From positions 1,612,001 through 1,676,000 of the forward strand of contig NZ_CP140614.1 in assembly GCF_036556685.1 (NCBI RefSeq): a stretch of 64,000 nucleotides of DNA, written 5' to 3'. This DNA comes from Sulfurospirillum sp. 1612. Lineage in GTDB: Bacteria; Campylobacterota; Campylobacteria; Campylobacterales; Sulfurospirillaceae. How positions within the stretch are numbered: the first letter of the stretch is position 1; every line of letters starts with the position of its first letter. Shown here one piece after another: positions 21,150 through 37,368 of the stretch. The notes beneath the pieces are model-generated. The model did not search any database. It saw only the letters and a list, made by a program, of their open reading frames with translations, and was not told where the DNA came from. The translations under genes and the position numbers were made by a program.

Positions 21150-23657
21150 ATGAAAGCCGTCGTAATGGCAGGTGGATTTGGCACCCGAATCCAACCCCTC
21201 ACACACTCAATTCCAAAACCAATGCTTCCTATTGTTAACAGACCGATGATGGAACACACGATGATGATGCTCAAAGATTTAGGCATCACAGATTTTATTG
21301 TTCTACTTTATTATAAGCCCGAGATTATCAAAGAATATTTTAAAGACGGCAGTGATTTTGGCATCACAATCAATTATATAACCCCTAATGATGACTATGG
21401 AACCGCAGGTGCAGTCAAACTCGCACAAGAATTGATAGGAGATGAAAATTTCATCATTATCAGTGGTGATTTGGTAACAGATTTTAATTTTCAAAAACTC
21501 TTTGATTTTCACAAAAAGCACAAAGCCAAACTCTCTATTGGCCTCACTTCCGTTGAAAACCCACTACAATTTGGCGTCGTCATTACCAACAAAGATCATA
21601 AGATAGAAAAATTTTTGGAAAAACCAAGCTGGGGCGAAGTCTTCAGCGATACAATCAATACCGGTATTTATATTATCGAACCTGAAATATTAAACTTTAT
21701 TCCAAAAAATGAAAATTACGATTTTGGCAAGGATTTATTTCCGAGTCTCATGAAAAGTGATATTGAACTCATGGGATATAATTTGAAGGGATATTGGCGC
21801 GATGTGGGTAATCCGGAGAGTTATCGCGAAGTGCATCAAGACATCCTCTATGATCGTTTTCATTTTACTATTCCGGGACAAACCCAAAAGTATCCCGATG
21901 GCATACTCTACAGCGACACCCCATATCAACTTGATAAAAGCATTGAGATCATCGGTAATGTTGTCTTAGGTAAAAATGTTACTATTGGTAATAATGTACG
22001 ATTGGGCAATGTCACTATTGGAGACGATGTCAAAATTGGCAGTGGCTCAAACATCCGTAACAGCGTTTTATGGAATCACATCACCATCGGTAAAAATGCA
22101 AAATTTGATGGTTGTGTCATCTGCTCGGATAATGTCATCGGCAAAAATGTCACCGCCAAAGCGGGATTGATATTAGCACAAAATTGTGAAGTTGGAGAGC
22201 TGGCATCATTTGAGCGAGACGTCACGATTTGGCCAGACAAGAAAGTAGAAGCCGCATCCATTGTCAGCCACTCTTTGATACTAGGAAGTAGATATAAAAA
22301 CGCCATATTTGAAGGGGGAAGTGTCTCCGGAAAAAGCAATATCGAGCTCTCTTGCGACATGGCAACAAAATTAGCTGAAGCCTTTGCCTCACAACTCCCA
22401 ATCGGCTCCAAAGTTGCAGTTGGTAGGGATAATGACAAAAGTTCACGAATGATAAAGCGCGCTTTTTTAGGGGGATTGCTCTCAGCCGGAATCAACGTCA
22501 TTGATATGAAAGGCATCGCCTCTTCGATTCTCAGATACGCCATAGCACGAGATGATTCCATCATCGCAGGAGCACATTTTAGACGTGACATCCTCGATAC
22601 AACCTGTTCACAAATCACTCTTTTTGATGAAGCTGCACTAAGGATTGATTCTAACTCCATCAAGGGAGTGGAAAAGGCATTTTTCACCGAGAAATTCAGA
22701 CGTGTGGATTATTCAAAAATTGGAGAGATTGAAGAATCCCTTCATGGCAAAGAGCTGCAATCATATGCAGTAGCAGTCGAAGAGAAAATCGACCATAGTA
22801 TCATCAAATGTGGTGGATTTAAGGTCGCTGTTGATGTTATGCATGGCAGCACTGCCGAAGTTTTTCCGCTTCTTTTAAATAATCTTGGTGTTGAAAATAT
22901 CGTCTTAGATGCTTATTATGATAATAAAAAACTCTCCAACATCGATAATCTCCTCAATCGCGCCAAATCCAATATCTCGAGCATTGTCACAAGCCTTAAT
23001 TATGATATGGGGATTATCATCTATCCTAATGCACAACGACTCTTACTCATCACCGATCAAGGTGAAGTCCTCGATAAGGTCAAAGGCTTATTAACCGTGA
23101 TGTATCTGCTTAATCTCACCACCAACGAAGGAGAGCGAAAGAAAAAGGTCTTTTTACCAACATGGTCGACTGATATGATTTATTTTGAAAATTTAGAAAT
23201 CGAACGAGGAAATTACTCCAACTTCAAAGCAGAAAAACTCAAAGAGTATGACTTAGTCGCCACGATGGATGGCAACTTTACCTTTACCGAATTTGGATTG
23301 AGTCGTGATGCGATGTATGCGAGCTTGAAAATCATGGAGATGCTCAGCTGTCACGGTATCAAACTCTCAGAAGTCTCTAAAAAACTTGATGACTTCTACT
23401 ATACCAGTCACAAAATAGAGTGTTCGCAATCGCTCAAAGGCAAGATGATGCGCAAATTTTTGGAAGATGCCATCGGCAAAAAATCTTCCTCAATCGACGG
23501 CGTTAAGATTTGGGAAAGTAAAACCGATTGGATTTTGATGATACCAGATCAGTACAGTGACCATCTCAATATCTATATCCAAGCGATTAATGAAGCAAAG
23601 GGAGAAGAGATTTACGAAAAATATTGCAAGAAAATAGACCTATGGTCGAAACAGTGA
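21150..23657 (+). CDS. Sugar-1-phosphate nucleotidyltransferase fused to a degenerate phosphomannomutase-like domain
   Basis: This 835-residue protein has three parts. Residues 1-230: nucleotidyltransferase fold with VMAGGFGTRIQPLT and PKPMLPI, GDLVTDF (metal Asp), GVVITNKDHKI, KPSWGEVFSDTINTGIY. About 250-370: left-handed beta-helix hexapeptides (VVLGKNVTIGNNVRLGNVTI). About 380-835: alpha-D-phosphohexomutase fold, whose phosphoserine loop is replaced by IIAGAHFRRD (about 471-480) and whose DGDGDR metal loop is replaced by NYDMGIIIYPNAQR (617-630). Such fusions are annotated as mannose-1-phosphate guanylyltransferases, but glucose-1-phosphate activation is likely here because the island has no glgC. 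AAGGAG lies 8 bases before the ATG. Its substrate and nucleotide are inference. Confidence 0.86.
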   Translation: MKAVVMAGGFGTRIQPLTHSIPKPMLPIVNRPMMEHTMMMLKDLGITDFIVLLYYKPEIIKEYFKDGSDFGITINYITPNDDYGTAGAVKLAQELIGDENFIIISGDLVTDFNFQKLFDFHKKHKAKLSIGLTSVENPLQFGVVITNKDHKIEKFLEKPSWGEVFSDTINTGIYIIEPEILNFIPKNENYDFGKDLFPSLMKSDIELMGYNLKGYWRDVGNPESYREVHQDILYDRFHFTIPGQTQKYPDGILYSDTPYQLDKSIEIIGNVVLGKNVTIGNNVRLGNVTIGDDVKIGSGSNIRNSVLWNHITIGKNAKFDGCVICSDNVIGKNVTAKAGLILAQNCEVGELASFERDVTIWPDKKVEAASIVSHSLILGSRYKNAIFEGGSVSGKSNIELSCDMATKLAEAFASQLPIGSKVAVGRDNDKSSRMIKRAFLGGLLSAGINVIDMKGIASSILRYAIARDDSIIAGAHFRRDILDTTCSQITLFDEAALRIDSNSIKGVEKAFFTEKFRRVDYSKIGEIEESLHGKELQSYAVAVEEKIDHSIIKCGGFKVAVDVMHGSTAEVFPLLLNNLGVENIVLDAYYDNKKLSNIDNLLNRAKSNISSIVTSLNYDMGIIIYPNAQRLLLITDQGEVLDKVKGLLTVMYLLNLTTNEGERKKKVFLPTWSTDMIYFENLEIERGNYSNFKAEKLKEYDLVATMDGNFTFTEFGLSRDAMYASLKIMEMLSCHGIKLSEVSKKLDDFYYTSHKIECSQSLKGKMMRKFLEDAIGKKSSSIDGVKIWESKTDWILMIPDQYSDHLNIYIQAINEAKGEEIYEKYCKKIDLWSKQ

Positions 23658-23664
23658 GCCCTCT

Positions 23665-25704
23665 GTGTTGAACTTAAGCTTCATCTGGCACATGCACCAA
23701 CCCGATTACAGAGATGACGCAGGCATCATGAAGATGCCTTGGGTTTTTTTGCATGCGATCAAAGATTATTTTGATATGCCCTGGATGCTAGCAAGACATC
23801 CCAATATTAAGGCCACGTTCAATATTACCTGTCCGCTCATAGAACAGTTAAAACTTTACTATGATGCGCCTGAGTCTCATGATTATTTTTTGAGCCTTTG
23901 GCTACAAGATACTAAAACGTTACATGAGAGTCAATTGCAGTGGATGATCAAGCTATGCAAAAGCGCACAATATGACACCATGGTCTCATCCCTGCCCTAT
24001 TTCAAAACACTCTATGAGAAGACAGAATATGAAAGTCAAGAGCTTTTTGATATGCAAGTGCTCTTTATCCTCTCATGGTGTGGCGTCTATTTGCGAGAGC
24101 ACAATGATCTTGTAAAAGAGCTGATTGCCAAAGAGAAAGATTTCAATCAAGATGATAAACAACGCCTACTCAAAGAATTGGCGCAATTTGTCAAAAGTAT
24201 CTTTGAATACTATATCTTACTCGCCAAAGAAGCGCGTATTTGTATCTCGACGACGCCCCTAAATCACCCGATTTTGCCATTATTAGTTGATATGAACAAT
24301 GCCCTTATTGCTAACAAAAGCACCAATATCCCTAAACAAAGTAGCTCCTTGAAAGAGGATGCCCTCTTGCAAATACAAAAAGCGCAAGCCTTGTTTGAAG
24401 AGACTTTTGGGTTTGCCCCTAGTGGTTTTTGGCCAGCGGAGGGAGCGGTTGATACGCAAAGCGTCCAACTCTTGCGCGACAACGGCATCCGATGGATTGC
24501 TACTGATGAAGCGATTTTGTTTAAATCACTCCAAAATAGTGATCGAAAAAATCTCTATTCTCCTTATTTATATCAAGACATGTGCATGGGCTTTCGAGAT
24601 CATGGACTCAGCGATTTGGTAGGATTTACTTATAGGTTTTGGGACGCGCAAAAAGCCAGCCATCACTTTATAGAAGCGCTCAAATCGATTAATAATGACA
24701 ATAAAAATGCCACTGTTTTTGTGATACTCGATGGTGAAAATGCTTGGGAATTTTACAAAAATAATGGATTTGATTTTTTTGATGCCCTCTATGATGGTCT
24801 CAACCACACTGCTTGGTGCCAGACGCTGCATATGGATGATGTGTTAAAATTACCCAAAAAACCCCTAGAGAGGCTAAGTCCTGGTAGCTGGATCAATGGT
24901 GAACTCAATACCTGGGTCGGACATAAAGAGAAAACCCGAGCTTGGGATCTTATCTATCTGACCAAACGCGATTTTGAACATCACCGAAGCAAACTGAGTC
25001 CTGAAGTGCTTGATAAAATCACTGATGAGTTTTTATTGGCAGAGTGTTCGGATTGGTTTTGGTGGTATGGCGATGACCATTACACCGACTTTGGCGGTGA
25101 GTTTGATGATCTTTTTCGAGCGCACTTGATTCATATCTATCTTTTGATGGAAATCTCGCCACCGACAGATTTGTTTGAGCCCATCACCAAACACAAAAGT
25201 TCAAAACACTTTTGGCTCCCTCCAAAATCCAATATATCTCCAAATCTCAATGGCATGCATCATTCGTTTTTTGATTGGATTGGATGTGGCACCGTTGATG
25301 AAGAGAAACTTTTTTCGACAATGGATAAAGCAAGAGGACCAATCAAAAAAATCCTTTATGGCGAAGATGAAGCATATCTCTATTTTGCATTTTTGGCCGG
25401 GGAAATTGGGTTTTCCACTTACAATCGGCTCAATATCATCATCGATCCCTTAGGCATCAATGAAGCCTTGCTTTTTGATACTGAGGTAAATCAAAATATT
25501 TCAAAACATCAAGGTAATTTAGAGATTGATTTTATTGTCAAAAATTGGTTTGATATCCGAATTAACAAAGCGGGATTAGAAGATAAATTGGTCAAATTTA
25601 GATTTGAATTGTGTCATGATCACAAAATCATACAGACCCTACCGGGATTTGGGGAACTTGATATGGATTTGACAAATAACTACACTGAAAATTGGTTTAT
25701 ATAA
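23665..25704 (+). CDS. GH57 glycoside hydrolase (amylopullulanase/alpha-amylase-like)
   Basis: This 679-residue protein opens with LSFIWHMHQPDYRDD, the GH57 conserved region 1. The nucleophile Glu lies in SGFWPAEGAV and the acid Asp in FVILDGENAW; WWYGDDHYTD follows. A C-terminal beta-sandwich of about 200 residues ends the protein. GH57 enzymes act on alpha-1,4 (and sometimes alpha-1,6) glucans by a retaining mechanism. No signal peptide is seen, so the substrate is an internal glucan such as glycogen. Start is GTG 23665 (next codon TTG), 7 bases after the previous stop, with a weak ribosome site. It might supply debranching, since no GH13 debranching enzyme is in the island. Confidence 0.88.
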   Translation: MLNLSFIWHMHQPDYRDDAGIMKMPWVFLHAIKDYFDMPWMLARHPNIKATFNITCPLIEQLKLYYDAPESHDYFLSLWLQDTKTLHESQLQWMIKLCKSAQYDTMVSSLPYFKTLYEKTEYESQELFDMQVLFILSWCGVYLREHNDLVKELIAKEKDFNQDDKQRLLKELAQFVKSIFEYYILLAKEARICISTTPLNHPILPLLVDMNNALIANKSTNIPKQSSSLKEDALLQIQKAQALFEETFGFAPSGFWPAEGAVDTQSVQLLRDNGIRWIATDEAILFKSLQNSDRKNLYSPYLYQDMCMGFRDHGLSDLVGFTYRFWDAQKASHHFIEALKSINNDNKNATVFVILDGENAWEFYKNNGFDFFDALYDGLNHTAWCQTLHMDDVLKLPKKPLERLSPGSWINGELNTWVGHKEKTRAWDLIYLTKRDFEHHRSKLSPEVLDKITDEFLLAECSDWFWWYGDDHYTDFGGEFDDLFRAHLIHIYLLMEISPPTDLFEPITKHKSSKHFWLPPKSNISPNLNGMHHSFFDWIGCGTVDEEKLFSTMDKARGPIKKILYGEDEAYLYFAFLAGEIGFSTYNRLNIIIDPLGINEALLFDTEVNQNISKHQGNLEIDFIVKNWFDIRINKAGLEDKLVKFRFELCHDHKIIQTLPGFGELDMDLTNNYTENWFI

Positions 25705-25718
25705 TGAAAGAGGAAAAT

Positions 25719-27752
25719 ATGAAAGAAGTCAGCTTACTTTTTGGAGTTCATCTGCATCAACCCGTCGACAATTTAGGCTTTGCCGTCGATGAAGCCATCG
25801 AAAAGTGTTATCGACCTTTTTTCGAGACAATGCTCAACTATCCAGAATTCAAATTTTCACTTCATTGTAGTGGTTGGCTTTTGGATCAAATCCGACTCCA
25901 TCATCCTGATATTTTTCAAGCGATGAAAACTCTCACAAAAAAGGGGACGATTGAGTGGATTAGTGCGGGATTTTATGAGCCCATACTCAGCGTTATCCCC
26001 TCTCATGATCGTGTCGCGCAGATTGAGAAACTCAACACCTTTATCAAAAAACATTTCAAGAAAGAACCTCACGGTTTATGGTTGACTGAGCGCGTTTGGG
26101 AATCCTCAATCGTGCCCGATCTCAATAAAGCAGCGATGGAATTTGCCCTGATTGATGATTATCATTTTTTAAGTAGCGGTTTTGATGCCAACTCGATGGA
26201 TGGGTATTTTCAAACTGAAGAGAGTGGCAAAAAACTCGCCCTCTTCCCAATCTCAGGGGCCTTGCGCTATGCACTGCCTTTTTTCAACACAAAACGCGCG
26301 ATTGATGCGATTTTGGATTGTAAAAAGCATGATGATTCTGCGGCGATTATCTTCGATGATGGTGAAAAATTTGGACTTTGGCCTAAAACTCATGAATGGG
26401 TTTATGAAAAAAAATGGCTTGAAAAATTCATCGAAGCGGTATTAGAAGACACCCGAATCAAAACCGAACATTTTAGCGATTATCTGAGACAAAACCGCTC
26501 TCGGGGTATCGCATATCTCAATAATACCTCCTATTTTGAGATGGGTGAGTGGAGTTTGAAAAGCGAACAAACGCTTGGCTTAGAAGCACTCAAAACGCAA
26601 GTAGGAACCGAATATTTTGATCATGAAGGCATCGCCTTTATCAAAGGGGGTATCTGGAAAAACTTTTTTGTCAAATATGAAGAGAGTAATTACTTACACA
26701 AAAGAATGCTCTATATGAGTCAAAGGCAAGCTCAACTCAAAACCAAAGCCAAAGAAAATCTCTACAAACTCCAAACCAATGATGTCTTCTGGCATGGGGT
26801 ATTTGGAGGATTGTATCTACCCAATCTCAGAGACAATGCCTACCATTATTTAATGGCATTAGAAAAAGAGTTTGCAACCAAAAACATCCAATATGAAGTC
26901 AGTGATATCGATATGGATGGGTATGATGAGCTCAAAGTCCTCAGCAAACAACTCTCATTGGTATTCTCATCCAAAAATGGTGCTCAAATGATAGAATTTG
27001 GCACTTTAGATGGGGGTTTTAATTGGCAAAATACGCTCACAAGAAGAAAAGAAGCCTATCATGATAAGATTTTAAATCCCTCCGCACCCGCCCCCATCCA
27101 AGACCATCATGAGGATGCCATCGCGACCATTCACCACGCGCCCGAACAGATTGATGAGAGACTGCGAGAAAATCTAATTTTTGATTGGCATTTGAAATAC
27201 TCTTTTGTAGATCACCTCTTGCTAGAACCCATCCAACTCTCGCAATTCAAAGCAGCAACGTTTAGAGAAATCGGTGATTTTGCCAATCAACCGTTTGAAC
27301 TTGATGCAAAAAACCAAACATTTACTCGCCAAGGGGGTATCTATCTAGAGCAACACTACCCAACAGAGTTGAGTAAAAAATTCTCTTTTTCTCACACCAT
27401 GGTCTCTTTAGATTGCCATGTGAAAACAGACTATAAAGGCGTGCTGTATTATGGTGTCGAATTCAATCTGCATTTTGCCCACCCCAAAGAGGTACGCTTT
27501 AATGGTGAAGCGATTCTAGATGGCCTTGTTTTGCACCACTTAGAACAGCTCATTATTTTCGATTCCTTTACCAACAAAACGCTCACCTTGAGCATGAACC
27601 AACCCTTTGATTGCACTGCATTTATCTTAAATACCGTCTCACAAAGTGAGAATGGATTTGATTTGGTCGCACAGCAAATCTCGTTTATCCTCACACTTCC
27701 ATGTCATGATGATGAGCATGTCACCTTGAGTTTAGGAGTTAAAGATGTCTGA
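25719..27752 (+). CDS. GH57 4-alpha-glucanotransferase/alpha-amylase
   Basis: This 677-residue protein has GH57 region 1 LLFGVHLHQPVDNLG, the nucleophile in LWLTERVWESS, the acid Asp in IIFDDGEKFGLWP, and C-terminal domains of the DUF1925/DUF1926 type seen in thermophilic 4-alpha-glucanotransferases. It should disproportionate maltodextrins released from glycogen, or hydrolyse them. It is unlike the neighbouring GH57 enzyme. I start at ATG 25719, 5 bases after AGAGG; an ATG at 25704 overlaps the previous stop codon and is the alternative. Its last 8 bases overlap the galT-like gene. Confidence 0.9.
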   Translation: MKEVSLLFGVHLHQPVDNLGFAVDEAIEKCYRPFFETMLNYPEFKFSLHCSGWLLDQIRLHHPDIFQAMKTLTKKGTIEWISAGFYEPILSVIPSHDRVAQIEKLNTFIKKHFKKEPHGLWLTERVWESSIVPDLNKAAMEFALIDDYHFLSSGFDANSMDGYFQTEESGKKLALFPISGALRYALPFFNTKRAIDAILDCKKHDDSAAIIFDDGEKFGLWPKTHEWVYEKKWLEKFIEAVLEDTRIKTEHFSDYLRQNRSRGIAYLNNTSYFEMGEWSLKSEQTLGLEALKTQVGTEYFDHEGIAFIKGGIWKNFFVKYEESNYLHKRMLYMSQRQAQLKTKAKENLYKLQTNDVFWHGVFGGLYLPNLRDNAYHYLMALEKEFATKNIQYEVSDIDMDGYDELKVLSKQLSLVFSSKNGAQMIEFGTLDGGFNWQNTLTRRKEAYHDKILNPSAPAPIQDHHEDAIATIHHAPEQIDERLRENLIFDWHLKYSFVDHLLLEPIQLSQFKAATFREIGDFANQPFELDAKNQTFTRQGGIYLEQHYPTELSKKFSFSHTMVSLDCHVKTDYKGVLYYGVEFNLHFAHPKEVRFNGEAILDGLVLHHLEQLIIFDSFTNKTLTLSMNQPFDCTAFILNTVSQSENGFDLVAQQISFILTLPCHDDEHVTLSLGVKDV

Positions 27753-28767
27753 AATACGATTGGATTTACTTAAAAACAGATATACCTTGATTGCTCCAGA
27801 GCGATTGCATCGTCCTGATTTTTATAAGCATCAAGAACAACCAAAAATCAGTGAAGCCGCCTGTCCTTTTTGTGAAGGCAACGAGACGATGACCCCTCCT
27901 GAAATCTTTGCGATGCGAAGCAATGAAGCCAATGCCCCTCATTGGCTCACGCGTGTTGTTCCCAATCTCTTCAAGGCTGTTCAAATCGAACTTGAAGACA
28001 GATCCAGACGCCAGGGATTATTTGAGAGTATTCCCGGAGTCGGTGCGCACGAAGTCTTGATTGACTCTCCTTCTCATACTCACGATTGTTCCAATTTAAA
28101 TGTCAATGAGATAGAAAATTGGCTCAAAAGTATCATACGTCGGATTACGGATTTGAAAAAAGATACCCGACTCGTTTATTTGAGTGTCTTTAAAAACCAT
28201 GGCATCAACGGTGGCGCCACACAAGAACACCCCCATACACAAATCTTAGCCTTGCCGATTATGCCCAAAACCGAATTGGCTTTTTTAAAGCACAATATGG
28301 AATATTATCGTTTGCATGGCAGAGGAAAACTCCAAGATATCGTCGAAAATGAAAAATTTTCTAAAGACAACAGAGTGATTGGTGAGCGAGGGAATTTTAT
28401 CGCATTTTGCCCATTTGCTAGTAGTTTTCCTTTTGAAGTCATGATTGCACCGACCAAAAATCTCGCCAATCTCGATGCTTGTGATTCTGATGACACCAAA
28501 GACCTCTCCGCTCTTTTAAAAGAAACATTTGCCAAACTCAACTCCCAATTGGGAGATTTTGATTATAATCTTTATTTCAAACTCTCTCCGCTTAATAGCA
28601 ATTTTGAAAATGAAATCTATATGCCTTATCTACAAAAGAATTTTCGATTTAGCCTGAGTATTATCCCTCGAAACTATCGGTTCGGTGGATTTGAACTCTC
28701 ATCAGAGATGATGATCAACCCAGTCGCCCCTGAAGAGTGCGCCAACCTTTTAAATGCAAAAGAGTAA
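27745..28767 (+). CDS. galT: GalT-like nucleotidylyltransferase (galactose-1-P uridylyltransferase or ADP-glucose phosphorylase)
   Basis: This 340-residue HIT-superfamily protein has the zinc-binding CPFCEGNE, the substrate segment KNHGINGGATQEHPHTQ with the catalytic His-Pro-His, and a second half that repeats the fold. The short form without E. coli GalT's long insertions is typical of archaea and thermophiles, and of a plant enzyme that turns out to be an ADP-glucose phosphorylase. No galK or galE is adjacent, while glucose-1-phosphate genes surround it, so nucleotide-glucose conversion fits the context better than galactose use. This is inference. Confidence 0.82.
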   Translation: MSEIRLDLLKNRYTLIAPERLHRPDFYKHQEQPKISEAACPFCEGNETMTPPEIFAMRSNEANAPHWLTRVVPNLFKAVQIELEDRSRRQGLFESIPGVGAHEVLIDSPSHTHDCSNLNVNEIENWLKSIIRRITDLKKDTRLVYLSVFKNHGINGGATQEHPHTQILALPIMPKTELAFLKHNMEYYRLHGRGKLQDIVENEKFSKDNRVIGERGNFIAFCPFASSFPFEVMIAPTKNLANLDACDSDDTKDLSALLKETFAKLNSQLGDFDYNLYFKLSPLNSNFENEIYMPYLQKNFRFSLSIIPRNYRFGGFELSSEMMINPVAPEECANLLNAKE

Positions 28768-28770
28768 CAC

Positions 28771-30165
28771 ATGAAGGTTTTATTTGCCTCAAGCGAAATC
28801 GTACCTTTTGCCAAAAGCGGCGGACTCGCCGATGTCGCAGCAGCGCTACCAAAAGCACTCAGCACATCGCTGACAATCGCACGCGTGATGCCACTTTATG
28901 GTTTCATCTCAAAAGAGAGACTCACACCAACGCCTTACAACTTTTCACTACAGCTAGGAGGTATTTCTTATGAGATTGTAATCTATCACAGTGAGCAAGA
29001 TGGCATGCGCACCTATTTCATCCAAGCACCGCTTTTGAGTGATACTCAACACTTATATGGCGATCATGAAGCCTATGCCAACAACGATCTGCGCTTTGGA
29101 ATTTTTAGTAAAGCCTTGGTGTATTTGGCCCAAGAATTACACATCGATATTTTACATCTCAATGATTGGCACAGCGCGCTTGCGGCGTTGTGGCTAAAGG
29201 AAATCTATCCGCAAGCAAAGAGTATTTTCACCATTCACAATCTCGCTTATCAAGGGATTTTTGAAAAAGAATCTTTGAAAAGATTAGGAATTAGTGAAAC
29301 CCACTTTACGATGGAGGATCTCGAATTTTACGGCCAATGCAACTTCATGAAAGCAGGCATCAAATACGCCAATGCCATCACGACAGTGAGCCCACATTAT
29401 GCCAAAGAAATCTTGAGCCCTGAATTTGGCTGTGGATTGGATGGATTTTTAAACCAACACAAAAAGAAGCTAACTGGCATCATCAATGGCTTAGATACTA
29501 CGCTTTTTAATGCCAAAAGTGATCCTGCACTTATTGCAAATTTTGATGAAAAGACGCTAAAAAATAAAAATAAAAATAAAAGCTACATGCTCAAAGAGAC
29601 CAAACTCAAAGATATCAAACGCCCTCTTTTTATCATGATAAGCCGACTCACCGAACAAAAAGGTTTTGATATTCTGCTTCAAAGTCTTGATGCACTCTTG
29701 GCACAAGAGCTAAATCTCTTGCTATTGGTCGATGGAGCCAGTCCTTATCAAACAGCACTGCAACAGGCCGCCGATACGCATCCTAATATGGCGTTGCGCT
29801 TGGGATTTGATGAAAACCTCTCCCATCAAATCTATGCTGCGGCGGATTTTTTCTTGATGCCTTCACATTTTGAACCTTGCGGACTCGCACAGATGATTTC
29901 GTATCGCTATGGCGTGATTCCCATCGTTAGAGATACCGGAGGATTGCATGATAGTGTGCATGAAAACAGCCGCCAATGCGGTCAGGGCATACGGTTCAAA
30001 CAAGCCACAGGCAATGCTTTAAAAAGAGCCATCAATCGGGCCTTAATACTCTATCACAACACAAAAAAGAAGCAAGAGATACAACGCTTCAATCTTCACT
30101 GTGATTTCTCCTTTGAGCACAGCGCACGGGAGTATCAAAAACTCTATCAAGCGGTACTATCATGA
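28771..30165 (+). CDS. glgA: Glycogen synthase, GT5 family (first copy)
   Basis: This 464-residue GT-B glycosyltransferase transfers glucose from ADP- (or UDP-) glucose to the non-reducing end of alpha-1,4-glucan. It has the nucleotide-binding KSGGLADV near the start, ILHLNDWHSALAAL, and the C-terminal RLTEQKGFD and PSHFEPCGL motifs with the catalytic Glu. It is 25 residues shorter than the second copy and is only about as similar to it as distant family members are. A lysine-asparagine repeat (KNKNKNK) lies at about residues 264-270, coded by a repeated AAAAAT. It overlaps the glucokinase by 4 bases. Confidence 0.92.
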   Translation: MKVLFASSEIVPFAKSGGLADVAAALPKALSTSLTIARVMPLYGFISKERLTPTPYNFSLQLGGISYEIVIYHSEQDGMRTYFIQAPLLSDTQHLYGDHEAYANNDLRFGIFSKALVYLAQELHIDILHLNDWHSALAALWLKEIYPQAKSIFTIHNLAYQGIFEKESLKRLGISETHFTMEDLEFYGQCNFMKAGIKYANAITTVSPHYAKEILSPEFGCGLDGFLNQHKKKLTGIINGLDTTLFNAKSDPALIANFDEKTLKNKNKNKSYMLKETKLKDIKRPLFIMISRLTEQKGFDILLQSLDALLAQELNLLLLVDGASPYQTALQQAADTHPNMALRLGFDENLSHQIYAAADFFLMPSHFEPCGLAQMISYRYGVIPIVRDTGGLHDSVHENSRQCGQGIRFKQATGNALKRAINRALILYHNTKKKQEIQRFNLHCDFSFEHSAREYQKLYQAVLS

Positions 30166-31004
30166 TACTCGCCATTGATGCGGGGGGAACCCATCTAAGA
30201 GCCCTACTTTTAGAGAAAGAAAAAGAGGTAGCATCTTTTGAGGCCAAAAGCAGTGAGATGCCACTAGGAAGTTGGTTGACCTCTCTTTTAGAAAAAAATC
30301 CTAAAATTCGTACCGTTTGTATCTCATTTGCGGGACAAGTGAACGATGGCACCATCACAGCCGCGCCTAATATGACTGTGGATATCCCCGATATCAAAAC
30401 CCACTTTGAGCGCCATTTTCCCATCACACTCTATATCGAAAATGACCTGAAATGTGCCGCAATTGCCGAGGCAAAAGCACACAAAAGTGCACATCTTTGT
30501 GCGCTTTATGTGGGTACGGGTATCGGACTTGGTGTCATCGAAGCAGGAAAACTCATAAAAGGTCATGATAATTTTGCCACTGAAATCGGGCACATCCCAT
30601 TTTCACCAGCACCATTTGCATGTGGTTGCGGCAGGGATAATTGCTTGGAACTCTTTGCGTCTGGTTCAGGTCTTCACAAATGGGCACGCTATTACAATCT
30701 AAAACCCAACCAAACGCTTGACTCATTAAAAACATCACAAGAACCCCACGCCCAAAAGATTGTCACACAATTTGAAAATGCGCTCTTACACGCAGCCGGT
30801 TGTGTGATTACGCTTTTTAATCCTGAGATTTTAGTCCTAGGAGGTGGGATTATCGAGGCCAATGGTTTTTTAGTCGATTTTATCAAAACCAATATTCACA
30901 CCACTGCATTGAAGCATTCAGTAAAAAATGTTATGATTGTCAAGAGCAATTTGAAACACGCCCCATTAACGGGGGCTACGCTATTAAAGGAATCTTATGT
31001 CTAA
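30162..31004 (+). CDS. ROK-family glucokinase
   Basis: This 280-residue protein has the ATP phosphate loop DAGGTHLR, the ROK zinc motif and glucose site EIGHIPFSPAP...CGCGRDNCLE, and VLGGGI. It phosphorylates glucose with ATP and so feeds hexose phosphates into the island. ROK proteins also act on other sugars, but this position between two glycogen synthases supports glucose. It is 4 bases inside the upstream glgA end and overlaps the second glgA by 8 bases, so it is tightly coupled to both. No DNA-binding domain is present, so it is not a ROK repressor. Confidence 0.88.
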   Translation: MILAIDAGGTHLRALLLEKEKEVASFEAKSSEMPLGSWLTSLLEKNPKIRTVCISFAGQVNDGTITAAPNMTVDIPDIKTHFERHFPITLYIENDLKCAAIAEAKAHKSAHLCALYVGTGIGLGVIEAGKLIKGHDNFATEIGHIPFSPAPFACGCGRDNCLELFASGSGLHKWARYYNLKPNQTLDSLKTSQEPHAQKIVTQFENALLHAAGCVITLFNPEILVLGGGIIEANGFLVDFIKTNIHTTALKHSVKNVMIVKSNLKHAPLTGATLLKESYV

Positions 31005-32466
31005 AGATAAATTAAAAGTCTTATTTGTCGCCGCAGAAGTTGTCCCCTTTGCCAAAACCGGAGGACTTGCAGATGTCTCAGGTGCCCTGCCAAAAGCTCT
31101 TAAAAAACTTGGGACTGAAATCATTGTCGTCATGCCACGATATTACAAAATCGACAAAAGCCAACTGCAAGCATTACCCGGTGCGCTAGGCGTTCCTATG
31201 GGACCCATTGGTGAGCTTTGGTGCGAAGTTTTTACCAGTTTTATACCCGGGAGCGATGTACCGATTTATTTCATCGATTATGAGGCTTATTTTGGTAGAA
31301 GTGCTTTATATGATGAAGAGGGCGAAGCTTATGAGGACAATGACAATCGATTTATCTTTTTATCAAAAGCCGCCTTACAACTCAGCAAAAAACTCTCCTT
31401 TCAACCCGATATTGTACACGCCAATGATTGGCATACGGCAATTCTTCCCATCTTGTGTCAAACACGCTTTTACGAAGATTTTGCCAACACGGCCTCCGTA
31501 CTGACCATACACAATCTCCAGCATCAAGGAGAATTTTTCAAAGGTGCGATGGATGTCATGGAGGTGGGTTGGGAACATTTCAATCCTATGGAATTTCAAA
31601 AATATGAGAATGTCAATTTTCTAAGAGGAGGAATTGCCACAACTGATGCCCTCACCACTGTTTCTGAAAAATATGCCCAAGAAATTCAAACACCCGAATT
31701 TGGATTTGGCTTAGAGGAGCATATTCGCGCTCATCGTGGAAAGTTATTTGGTATTTTAAATGGGGTGGATTATCATGAGTGGAACCCCAGTTGTGATGAC
31801 CATATCGCCGCCTATTATGATAGCGATGATATGAGAGGTAAAGCCCTATGCAAACGGGATTTACAAGAGTATTTTGGACTTAAAGTCGATGACAATATCC
31901 CGCTGATTGGTTTTGTTGGAAGATTTGCAGAACAAAAAGGACTCTCCATGATTGCTGAGGCAATCAGAGGACTTTTGGATTTAGACTTACAAATTGTCAT
32001 CTTGGGTACCGGAGAAAAATGGGCAGAATTTTTCTTTGGTGAAGTCGCAGCAAAACACAGAGACAAATTGGGCGTACATATTGGATATAGCAATACCTTA
32101 GCCCACAAAATAGAGGCAGGCAGTGATATGTTCTTGATGCCTTCTTTGTTTGAGCCCTGTGGCTTAAATCAAATCTATTCACTGCGCTATGGCACACTCC
32201 CCATTGTCCGTGCCACCGGGGGACTGGATGATACGATTATAAACTATGAAAATGACAATCCAAATAGTAATGGTTTTAAATTTTATGAACCCAGTGCTTG
32301 GGCACTGTATCATACCATCAAATGGACACTAGAGGTGTATCACAATGAAAAATCAGAATTTTTCCAAATGCAACAACGCGCTATGGCGTTACGATTTGAC
32401 TGGGAAAAAGCAGCACTTTCTTATATGAAAGTGTATCAGTTCGCACGCGACAAACATAATAACTAG
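30997..32466 (+). CDS. glgA: Glycogen synthase, GT5 family (second copy)
   Basis: This 489-residue GT-B enzyme has FVAAEVVPFAKTGGLADVSG, IVHANDWHTAILPIL, GRFAEQKG, and PSLFEPCGLNQIYSLRYG. These are intact donor-binding and catalytic motifs. It is more like the classic bacterial GlgA/starch synthase in length than the first copy. Two copies in one operon may divide labour, such as priming and elongation, or use different donors (ADP- and UDP-glucose). That is inference; the sequence shows only that both look active. glgB starts 9 bases after its stop. Confidence 0.93.
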   Translation: MSKDKLKVLFVAAEVVPFAKTGGLADVSGALPKALKKLGTEIIVVMPRYYKIDKSQLQALPGALGVPMGPIGELWCEVFTSFIPGSDVPIYFIDYEAYFGRSALYDEEGEAYEDNDNRFIFLSKAALQLSKKLSFQPDIVHANDWHTAILPILCQTRFYEDFANTASVLTIHNLQHQGEFFKGAMDVMEVGWEHFNPMEFQKYENVNFLRGGIATTDALTTVSEKYAQEIQTPEFGFGLEEHIRAHRGKLFGILNGVDYHEWNPSCDDHIAAYYDSDDMRGKALCKRDLQEYFGLKVDDNIPLIGFVGRFAEQKGLSMIAEAIRGLLDLDLQIVILGTGEKWAEFFFGEVAAKHRDKLGVHIGYSNTLAHKIEAGSDMFLMPSLFEPCGLNQIYSLRYGTLPIVRATGGLDDTIINYENDNPNSNGFKFYEPSAWALYHTIKWTLEVYHNEKSEFFQMQQRAMALRFDWEKAALSYMKVYQFARDKHNN

Positions 32467-32475
32467 GATTAGATT

Positions 32476-34389
32476 ATGACACATGAAATGTATTACGATG
32501 TGAGTCTCTTTAGTGAATTAGATATCTATCTTTTCAAAGAAGGCACCCATACACAACTCTACAAACACTTAGGCGCACACCCCATGATGCGAGAAGATGA
32601 AGCTGGCGTTTATTTTGCACTTTGGGCTCCCAATGCTGAAGATGTGAGTGTGCGTGGAGATTTCAATAATTACGATATACACGCGCATAAACTCAAAAAA
32701 AGAGAGGATAATTCGGGTATTTGGGAAGGCTTTATCACAGCAGTTCCACAAGGTTGTAGCTATAAATATCATATCTTTACCGCCACACAAAATGCTAATG
32801 CAGACAAAGCCGACCCGTATGCTTTTTATGCAGAAATTGCGCCCCACTCTGCCTCGCGTGTTTGGGATATCGCTAATTTTCAGTGGAGCGACGAAAAATG
32901 GCTCACCAAACGTCAAAAACAAAATTCACAGCGCGTACCGATTAGTGTTTATGAAGTGCACTTAGGCTCATGGAGAAGAAAAGTCGAAGAAGATAACCGA
33001 TTTTTAACGTATGAAGAATCGGCCCTTGCCTTGGCCCGTTATCTCAAAGAGATGCACTTTACGCATGTCGAACTCCTGCCCATCACAGAATATCCTTTCG
33101 TCGGCTCATGGGGCTATCAAGCCAGCGGATATTTCGCCCCCACAGCACGCTATGGTAGCCCACAAGATTTCATGACATTTGTAGATATTATGCATGCTCA
33201 TGATATTGGAGTCATTTTAGATTGGGTGCCCTCTCACTTTGTGACAGACGGTCATGGTTTGATGAATTTTGATGGCACTTGTTTGTATGAACATGCCGAC
33301 CCAAGAAAGGGATACCACCCACAATGGGGCAGTGCTATTTTTAATTATGACCGTAATGAAGTTCGAGAATTTCTCATTAGCTCCGCCATGTTTTGGTTGG
33401 AGATGTATCATATCGATGGCATTCGCGTGGATGCCGTGGCTTCGATGTTATATCTCAATTATGCGCGAGAAGATGGGGAATGGATTCCCAATGAATTTGG
33501 GGGAGACCTCAACCTTGGTGCTATCAAATTTTTACAACAACTCAACAAAACCATAGAAGCTTTTTATAGTGATGCCATGATATTTGCAGAAGAATCTACC
33601 AATTTCAATAAAGTCACCGGTGCGGTTGATGAGGGAGGATTGGGATTTGATTATAAATGGAATATGGGTTGGATGCATGATATTTTGAAATACATGAAAA
33701 ATGACCCGATTCACAGACAATATCATCATAAAGACCTCACCTTTAGTTTCGTCTATGTTTACAATGAAAACTATATCTTGCCATTGAGTCATGATGAAGT
33801 GGTGCATATGAAAGGCTCCCTCATCAACAAAATGCCCGGAGACAATAATCAAAAATTTGCCAATTTACGTGCCATGTATGCCTTGATGTTTGCGCATCCT
33901 GGCAAGAAACTTCTCTTTATGGGTGGAGAATTTGCACAATTTGCAGAGTGGCATTATGAGCAGAGTTTGGATTGGCATCTTTTAGATTATGCACCACACC
34001 AAGGTATCAAAAATTTGATTAAAACACTCAACACACTCTATCGAAGTGAACCAGCACTCTATGAGGGCGATACTTCACCGGATGGATTTGAGTGGATTGA
34101 TGAAAATGATGCACAGGCTAATGTCATCACTTTTATGAGAAAAAGTCACGATGATACGATTATTGTCATCTGTAATTTTTCAGATAAAACCCATACCGAT
34201 TACCCAATAGGATTGCCTCAAGAAGGAGAATATGTCGAGATATTTAACTCCCAATCAGCCGATTTTGACGGTTGGGAAGAGCCAAGAACAAGACGCATAC
34301 ACACCATCAAAAAAACACAACACGGTAGAGATTATATGGCACATGTGACCTTGGGGTCACTTAGCGTTATATATCTTAAAAAAGTTTGA
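32476..34389 (+). CDS. glgB: 1,4-alpha-glucan branching enzyme, GH13
   Basis: This 637-residue protein introduces alpha-1,6 branches. It has an N-terminal CBM48 (VYFALWAPNAEDVSVRGDFN), then the (beta/alpha)8 barrel: DWVPSHF, nucleophile Asp in IDGIRVDAVASML, acid Glu in IFAEESTNF, and PLSHDEVVH. It is shorter than E. coli GlgB (728), lacking the extra N-terminal domain. TAGGATTAG precedes the ATG, a moderate ribosome site. An 81-base gap separates it from the pgi gene. Confidence 0.96.
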   Translation: MTHEMYYDVSLFSELDIYLFKEGTHTQLYKHLGAHPMMREDEAGVYFALWAPNAEDVSVRGDFNNYDIHAHKLKKREDNSGIWEGFITAVPQGCSYKYHIFTATQNANADKADPYAFYAEIAPHSASRVWDIANFQWSDEKWLTKRQKQNSQRVPISVYEVHLGSWRRKVEEDNRFLTYEESALALARYLKEMHFTHVELLPITEYPFVGSWGYQASGYFAPTARYGSPQDFMTFVDIMHAHDIGVILDWVPSHFVTDGHGLMNFDGTCLYEHADPRKGYHPQWGSAIFNYDRNEVREFLISSAMFWLEMYHIDGIRVDAVASMLYLNYAREDGEWIPNEFGGDLNLGAIKFLQQLNKTIEAFYSDAMIFAEESTNFNKVTGAVDEGGLGFDYKWNMGWMHDILKYMKNDPIHRQYHHKDLTFSFVYVYNENYILPLSHDEVVHMKGSLINKMPGDNNQKFANLRAMYALMFAHPGKKLLFMGGEFAQFAEWHYEQSLDWHLLDYAPHQGIKNLIKTLNTLYRSEPALYEGDTSPDGFEWIDENDAQANVITFMRKSHDDTIIVICNFSDKTHTDYPIGLPQEGEYVEIFNSQSADFDGWEEPRTRRIHTIKKTQHGRDYMAHVTLGSLSVIYLKKV

Positions 34390-35724: not shown

Positions 35725-37368
35725 ATGAATCTATTTTCATATGACATCAATAAAAAATATAACAAATCAGTCGCCTACTTTTCAATGGAATTTGCGATTG
35801 ATCAAACACTCAAAATCTACTCAGGAGGTCTTGGATTTCTTGCAGGCTCACATATGAGAAGTGCGTATGATTTACGCCAAAATATTGTCGGAATTGGACT
35901 GCTTTGGAGTTTTGGATATTATGATCAATCACGCAATGAAGACCGAACGCTGCGTCCTGTTTATACGCGAAAATTTTACTATTTTTTAGAAGAACTCGAG
36001 CCAAAAGTCACGGTTAAAATTCATGGTGAAGATGTTGTCGTCAAAGCATTTTTAGTCAAACCCGAAGTCTTTGGTGCCGCACCATTGATTTTGCTCTCAA
36101 CTGACACTGATGAGAATGACTACCTTGCACGAACCATCACACATAAACTGTATGATGGCAATGAGCGTACCCGAGTCGCGCAAGAGATTGTCCTTGGAAT
36201 CGGAGGGGTAAAAATCTTAGAGGCCCTCCAACAAAAGATTGATATTTATCATATGAATGAGGGTCATGCACTCCCTTTAGTGTATGAACTCTACAACAAA
36301 ACTCCCGACATGGAAGCCATCAAGAAACAGGTCGTTTTCACCACCCATACGCCGGAGAAAGCGGGAAATGAAGAACATAATATCAACTTTTTACATGATA
36401 TGGGATTTTTCAATGGTTTGGATATGCCAACCGTTCGCAAGATTACCGGCTACGAACATGAAGATAACTTTAGTCTCACCATAGGCGCTTTGCGTAGTGC
36501 TAAGATTGCCAATGCCGTATCTAAAATCCATGCAACCGTCTCCAATGAGATGTGGGCTCATGTCGAAAATCGTTGTGAGATTATCTCGATCACCAACTCA
36601 CAAAACAAAAAATACTGGACTGACAAAACACTCACAAGAAACCTAGATGAACACGAGGATTATGAACTCAATGCCAGAAAAAAACACCTCAAAAAAATCC
36701 TCTTTGATGTCGTAGCGGATCAAACAGGCAAAATGTTCAATCCAGAAGTGTTGACTATTGTTTGGGCGCGTCGTTTTGCCGAATACAAAAGACCCGGACT
36801 TTTAAAATATGATTTTGAACGTTTTGAAAAATTAATGAAAAATAGTGAAATGCCCATACAAATCATCTGGGCAGGAAAACCTTATCCGACCGATTATGGT
36901 GCGATTGATCTCTTTAATGAATTGATTAATATCAGTCATCATTACAAGAATATGGCCGTGTTAATTGGCTATGAACTCACACTCTCAAAGATGTTAAAAC
37001 AAGGCAGCGATGTCTGGCTTAATACACCAAGAATCACTCGAGAAGCCAGTGGAACCAGCGGTATGGCCGCGAGTATGAATGGATCCATCCACTTTTCTAT
37101 TGATGATGGATGGCACCCTGAATTTGCGCGCGATGGCAAAAATGCCTTCACGATTCCAGCGGTTGATCATACATTGCCCCTAGAAGAACAAGATCGCTTG
37201 GACAATCAACACATGATGGATATCTTGGAAAATAAAATCATCCCGACCTATTACAAAGAACACACACAATGGTTGGAGATTATGAAAAGTGCGATGACAG
37301 AGATCGAAATAGAGTTTGATTCAAGCAGGCAAGCCGATGAATATTATGAAAAAATGTTTAATTATTAA
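35725..37368 (+). CDS. GT35 alpha-glucan phosphorylase homologue lacking the PLP lysine
   Basis: This 547-residue protein is the short GT35 form, not the 800-residue E. coli GlgP. It retains SVAYFSMEFAID, MNEGHALPLVYEL, WARRFAEYKRPGLL (the phosphate- and nucleotide-contacting Arg and Lys), and REASGTSGM. The pyridoxal-phosphate-binding lysine that follows GTSGM (GTGNMK in classic enzymes) is replaced by Ala448: GMAASMNG. It ends with a family-like IDDGWHPEF. A phosphorylase without this lysine should not bind PLP normally, so it may not phosphorolyse glycogen; it could act as a different glucosyltransferase or a glucan-binding regulator. It lies 9 bases before pgm. Confidence 0.85.
   Translation: MNLFSYDINKKYNKSVAYFSMEFAIDQTLKIYSGGLGFLAGSHMRSAYDLRQNIVGIGLLWSFGYYDQSRNEDRTLRPVYTRKFYYFLEELEPKVTVKIHGEDVVVKAFLVKPEVFGAAPLILLSTDTDENDYLARTITHKLYDGNERTRVAQEIVLGIGGVKILEALQQKIDIYHMNEGHALPLVYELYNKTPDMEAIKKQVVFTTHTPEKAGNEEHNINFLHDMGFFNGLDMPTVRKITGYEHEDNFSLTIGALRSAKIANAVSKIHATVSNEMWAHVENRCEIISITNSQNKKYWTDKTLTRNLDEHEDYELNARKKHLKKILFDVVADQTGKMFNPEVLTIVWARRFAEYKRPGLLKYDFERFEKLMKNSEMPIQIIWAGKPYPTDYGAIDLFNELINISHHYKNMAVLIGYELTLSKMLKQGSDVWLNTPRITREASGTSGMAASMNGSIHFSIDDGWHPEFARDGKNAFTIPAVDHTLPLEEQDRLDNQHMMDILENKIIPTYYKEHTQWLEIMKSAMTEIEIEFDSSRQADEYYEKMFNY

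Follow-up and report, generated by a model that had tools for sequence, protein, structure and literature searches.

A short GT35 clade that lost the pyridoxal phosphate lysine: candidate PLP-free glucan enzymes in several bacterial groups

Introduction

Can a member of the glycogen phosphorylase family GT35 work without the lysine that carries pyridoxal phosphate (PLP)? It has long been asked why glycogen phosphorylase depends on PLP when similar reactions are carried out by other GT-B enzymes that lack it. The question is raised again by a gene of Sulfurospirillum sp. 1612 (35725–37368, forward strand) lying in the window analysed here, a stretch of 64,000 nucleotides. The anchor lysine of the encoded protein is gone and every glucose and phosphate residue that we examined is kept, which makes it a natural experiment on the need for PLP. 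The initial annotation of this locus held that a protein without PLP could not perform normal phosphorolysis and might be a non-phosphorolytic glucosyltransferase, a glucan sensor or a partner of another enzyme. On balance and with modest confidence, we think that a branch of GT35 dropped PLP entirely and stayed a working glucan enzyme, in which a free phosphate or pyrophosphate ion, or else a nucleotide, would take the place of the cofactor phosphate.

Results

The gene encodes a short GT35 protein of 547 aa. It matches TIGR02094 (NCBIfam) with 447.8 bits (cut-off 191.7) and PF00343 with 52.4 bits (cut-off 27), both above the thresholds for GT35, and it is the sole GT35 gene of the complete 2.38 Mb genome. 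Codons 37042–37083 (forward strand) translate E-A-S-G-T-S-G-M-A-A-S-M-N-G. In the alignment Ala448 (GCC, 37066–37068) pairs with K646 of E. coli MalP, which is the PLP-carrying lysine of that enzyme, where K534 and K540 are also named (Chem. Rev. 2024, PMC11046441). The Schiff-base lysine of a PLP-dependent glycogen phosphorylase (EC 2.4.1.1) is thus replaced by Ala448, and no substitute lysine is found at the aligned position within EASGTSGMAASMNG. The initial annotation had therefore read the site correctly: codons and alignment confirm the missing lysine, the search for an alternative one leaves the claim standing, and the ARRFAEYKRP and EASGTSG motifs are intact as it had said.

The absence of lysine is not a local mutation. 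Lysine-less short GT35 (TIGR02094) proteins form a widespread monophyletic clade with hosts in Campylobacterota, Bacteroidota, Verrucomicrobiota/Akkermansia, Gastranaerophilales and Pseudomonadaceae. The site is occupied by Thr or Ser, rarely by Ala and never by Lys in 90/90 non-redundant clade members, as compared to Lys in 54/54 members of the sister groups, a split that is far beyond chance. Within Campylobacterota close short orthologues (at least 58% identity) are present in about 37 of 298 genomes, and the 30 that were retrieved all have Ala, Ser or Thr. A motif scan of the whole collection gave at least 119 places with a non-Lys codon at the site, using a pattern that allows every codon except those with A in the middle and thus excludes Lys by design. 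The matches listed come from Bacteroidota, Campylobacterota, Gastranaerophilales, Verrucomicrobia/Akkermansia, Halopseudomonas and a Desulfurellales MAG, and the readable residues among them are Thr or Ser. Because of the design of the pattern, sampling with the family HMM was added. Forty further short genes, picked by a two-piece HMM signature without the motif, have Thr (25), Ser (14) or Ala (1) and no Lys. Ala was seen in two genes only, the one described here and a gene of Pseudomonadaceae (L322). A catalytic role of the hydroxyl is unlikely given Ala in the Sulfurospirillum protein, and the second gene shows that more than one lineage can do without a hydroxyl here.

Phylogenetic analysis points to a single event. 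In the IQ-TREE tree, calculated with the trait column removed, the loss of Lys is one change on one branch and the non-lysine branch is monophyletic (support 100/100). FastTree on 146 sequences is concordant with a single origin and has a long clade stem (0.79 changes per site). The initial annotation had suspected an under-studied subfamily with members in Bacteroidota instead of a mutation and had proposed a tree of GT35 with lysine and non-lysine branches; the motif scan and both trees agree with this suspicion. Sequencing error or recent mutation is ruled out, as Lys is absent clade-wide. Short protein length is ruled out as the cause of the loss, since a second short TIGR02094 group (L288–L296, 569–690 aa) keeps Lys in all members; Lys is also present in all retrieved long TIGR02094 paralogues (about 690 aa and more). 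Current public records name the clade genes ordinary glgP. We found no description of a lysine-less GT35 clade in the open-access literature, a scope outside which most subscription papers fall, and the clade may have been described elsewhere already.

In Bacteroidota the lysine-less gene occurs in 24 of 198 sampled genomes, none of which has another GT35, while 146 others have one; the same holds for 15 of 115 genomes in Verrucomicrobiota (0/15 with another GT35, 98 others with one) and for 8 of 148 in Pseudomonadaceae (0/8 and 80, respectively). The expected overlaps are 17.7, 12.8 and 4.3 genomes, with one-sided p-values of 9e-17, 6e-17 and 0.0016, all uncorrected for relatedness. In Flavobacteriaceae the exclusion is not significant, the test being without power there. 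Both forms coexist in ten Campylobacterota genomes, which means that one cannot always stand in for the other. Lysine-bearing and lysine-less genes share one operon in at least three Campylobacterota, with Pgm and Pgi between them. Most Bacteroidota with the lysine-less gene have GlgA (GT5) or, when GlgA is absent, often GT3. As a synthase is usually present and another GT35 is absent, the missing function is that of a phosphorylase and not of a synthase. A role as glycogen synthase is unlikely for the same reason. The 547-aa protein itself scores 19.8 bits with Glyco_transf_5 (PF08323), below the cut-off of 22.7, and PF05693 (GT3 glycogen synthase) has no match anywhere in the Sulfurospirillum sp. 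1612 genome.

The conserved glucose and phosphate residues of GT35 (GGLG, H, N, RxxxxK and EASGT) are present in the Sulfurospirillum protein and in 90/90 clade members. Specifically, the phosphate loop G34-G35-L36-G37 (35824–35835; G114-G115 in MalP) is kept in all 90. The stretch R349-R350-F-A-E-Y354-K355-R356 (36769–36792) holds the phosphate-binding RxxxxK together with the basic residue for the PLP phosphate (K534, R535 and K540 in MalP); R350, Y354 and K355 are kept in 90/90, whereas at R349 89 members have Arg and one has Lys. E440, G443, T444 and S445 of the EASGT motif are invariant. In rabbit numbering, the equivalents of E88, G134, G135, D339 (as Glu), H341, H377, N484, R569, Y573, K574, K608, E672, G675 and T676 are invariant in the 90 members. 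The contact assignments follow the rabbit enzyme, where K568, the counterpart of R349, contacts the PLP phosphate.

The clade-specific changes cluster in the alignment around the pyridine ring. Apart from Thr, Ser or Ala at the site of rabbit K680, the R649 site has become Glu417 and the A653 site Ser421 (both 90/90), and site 657 is Lys425 in 90/90 clade members and in 0/54 members of the lysine-bearing groups, most of which have Val there. E417, S421 and K425 (36973–36999), which are absent or rare among the lysine-bearing groups, form one helix face at the pyridine-ring pocket. After T290-N291 the clade has AQN where others have GVH, and V346-W347 and W61 are further clade-specific changes. 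With the glucose and phosphate residues and the Arg for the PLP phosphate kept, the changes restricted to the ring side and a new Lys425 gained, the active site looks re-tooled rather than decaying, and the clade looks catalytically active.

The AlphaFold2 model of the protein (pLDDT 95.8, pTM 0.94) has the phosphorylase GT-B fold. Its best PDB match is the glycogen phosphorylase of Segatella copri (9l6i, TM 0.92, 29% identity), and the next matches are other phosphorylases; no solved structure from the lysine-less clade was among those found. The Segatella enzyme, a TIGR02094 member ('alpha-glucan family phosphorylase'), shares with our protein the fold (TM 0.90–0.92), all the glucose and phosphate residues and the RR...YKR and EASGTSG motifs. 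Unlike our protein, it carries the PLP lysine, its N-terminal part is long, and it has an additional segment near profile positions 325–365 and other residues around the PLP ring. The TIGR02093 enzymes of GT35, i.e. E. coli MalP and GlgP and animal glycogen phosphorylase, have a homologous catalytic core with the GT-B fold, but they are about 800 aa long, carry PLP (on K646 in MalP) and are 15–17% identical to the protein.

The gene lies in a glycogen operon, as had been noted before. All genes of the run are on the forward strand. It includes a sugar nucleotidyltransferase fused to a phosphohexomutase (21150–23657), a GH57 glycoside hydrolase (23665–25704), a GH57 protein with 4-alpha-glucanotransferase domains (25692–27752), a GalT-like nucleotidyltransferase (27745–28767), two different GlgA (GT5) glycogen synthases (28771–30165 and 30997–32466) and the branching enzyme GlgB (32476–34389). 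Glucose-6-phosphate isomerase (Pgi, NF003016; 34471–35715) ends 9 nt upstream of the GT35 gene and phosphoglucomutase (Pgm, TIGR01132; 37378–39042) begins 9 nt downstream. Elsewhere in Campylobacterota the gene often directly adjoins Pgi, Pgm, a ROK kinase, the fused nucleotidyltransferase or 6-phosphofructokinase.

Discussion

The sugar and phosphate residues are kept and the gene stands where the normal enzyme is missing, hence the protein is probably a working enzyme that acts in a different way. The explanation that we prefer, if tentatively, is that a distinct GT35 clade lost covalently bound PLP once and that its members are probably active, PLP-free retaining alpha-1,4-glucan phosphorylases. 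The terminal glucose of glycogen or maltodextrin would bind in the unchanged glucose site (E22, E179, H181, H208, N291 and E440), phosphate would be gripped by the GGLG loop, R350 and K355, and glucose-1-phosphate would be handed on to the neighbouring Pgm and Pgi. The role of the PLP 5'-phosphate may be taken by a free anion, either pyrophosphate or a second phosphate, in the pocket of R349, K355, T444 and S445, which has been kept. Alternatively, this role may not be needed at all, as in the trehalose phosphorylase of GT4. The clade-specific set of E417, S421, K425 and Thr or Ser at position 448 would occupy the space that the ring has left.

There are precedents for such chemistry. The GT4 trehalose phosphorylase is PLP-free, and in glycogen phosphorylase reconstituted with pyridoxal a free anion reportedly replaced the missing 5'-phosphate. 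Both lend chemical plausibility to a glucan phosphorylase without covalent PLP. A front-side mechanism has been assigned to GT4 and GT35 alike (PMC8950772), trehalose phosphorylase acts through RxxxxK (PMC12018205), and early chemical rescue by phosphate analogues on pyridoxal-reconstituted glycogen phosphorylase is cited in the latter work. The retaining trehalose phosphorylase of Schizophyllum commune (PMC8950772, PMC12018205) has the RxxxxK that is seen here as R350-FAEY-K355, which is a functional likeness and not membership: it belongs to another family, acts on trehalose and is no sequence relative at the family level. With this example of retaining GT-B phosphorolysis, the conclusion that loss of PLP excludes normal phosphorolysis is not supported. 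Nor do the data support a non-phosphorolytic transferase, a sensor or a partner, because one genome after another has the clade gene in place of the classical phosphorylase, the phosphate and glucose ligands examined are kept and Pgi, Pgm and phosphofructokinase adjoin.

The main doubt concerns Lys425. It could hold PLP from another side, and the enzyme would then still be PLP-dependent, either through this new anchor or with PLP held non-covalently through its phosphate. Lys425 is as invariant in the clade as it is absent from the lysine-bearing groups, and it entered the pocket helix on the same stem branch. Together with E417 and S421 it has i, i+4, i+8 spacing at the modelled helix 418–427; in rabbit phosphorylase this helix touches the PLP ring with its first turns. 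The ligands of the PLP phosphate (R349, K355, T444 and S445) are kept as well. Several ring contacts, however, have changed too (Glu at the R649 site and Ser at the A653 site), and we know of no moved Schiff-base lysine in GT35. Retention of PLP is an unlikely alternative.

It is an established idea that the PLP of GT35 enzymes imitates a part of the nucleotide used by GT-B synthases, and a pocket freed of PLP might bind a nucleotide. The enzyme would in that case carry out NDP-glucose chemistry, as a glucan synthase or by making NDP-glucose from glycogen and NDP, like sucrose synthase does with sucrose. G415-Y416 and S421 resemble the GY...S of E. coli GlgA, where lysine-bearing GT35 proteins have D/N-Y and A, and this counts against a PLP-free phosphorylase; the operon also holds a sugar nucleotidyltransferase and the GalT-like gene. 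GlgA shares the GT-B fold, but it is a nucleotide-sugar enzyme and lacks the basic residue that precedes the catalytic Arg in GT35, having Ser or Gly where the clade retains R349. Most of the genomes already have a GT5 or GT3 synthase, two copies of GlgA are in this very operon, and the mutual exclusion is with phosphorylase and not with synthase. With synthases present and R349 kept, we regard the use of nucleotide sugars as rather improbable. Still less probable is a non-catalytic protein that senses glucan, has a regulatory role or teams up with another glycogen enzyme. The path to a pseudo-enzyme typically starts with the loss of a cofactor residue, and the Campylobacterota with both forms would permit a regulatory division of labour. 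Pseudo-enzymes normally lose their catalytic and substrate residues, though, and all those examined here are invariant across several phyla; moreover, most of the genomes have no active GT35 that could be the partner.

If a PLP-free phosphorylase is the right explanation, a textbook PLP family of glycogen breakdown has a PLP-free branch in several bacterial groups. Relatives labelled as ordinary glgP, including those of Akkermansia and many Bacteroidota, may enter metabolic models as a putative PLP enzyme.

Several features of the gene surroundings deserve mention. No canonical GlgC was found in any sampled Campylobacterota genome, Sulfurospirillum sp. 1612 included, although GlgA is present; the nucleotidyltransferase–phosphomutase fusion that heads the operon may supply the glucosyl nucleotide. 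The GalT-like protein inside the operon is kin to DUF4931/DUF4921, and a ROK-family sugar kinase (glucokinase-like, 30162–31004) separates the two GlgA genes. At two loci in Flavobacteriaceae the gene is accompanied by GH31 together with GlgB or an alpha-amylase. Most other copies in Bacteroidota lie among unrelated neighbours away from glycogen genes; the neighbours vary, and no conserved partner gene was found in this phylum. Two copies are on plasmids, in Runella rosea and Pontibacter actiniarum, and the gene next to the Runella copy bears the annotation of a pyridoxamine 5'-phosphate oxidase family protein. Widespread among Bacteroidota is a stand-alone half of GlgA, about 260–300 aa long and made up of the N-terminal GT5 domain alone. 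It is ruled out as a specific partner, being present also in genomes without the lysine-less GT35 (four examples). In Chryseobacterium-type genomes this GlgA half is located about 10 kb from the lysine-less gene.
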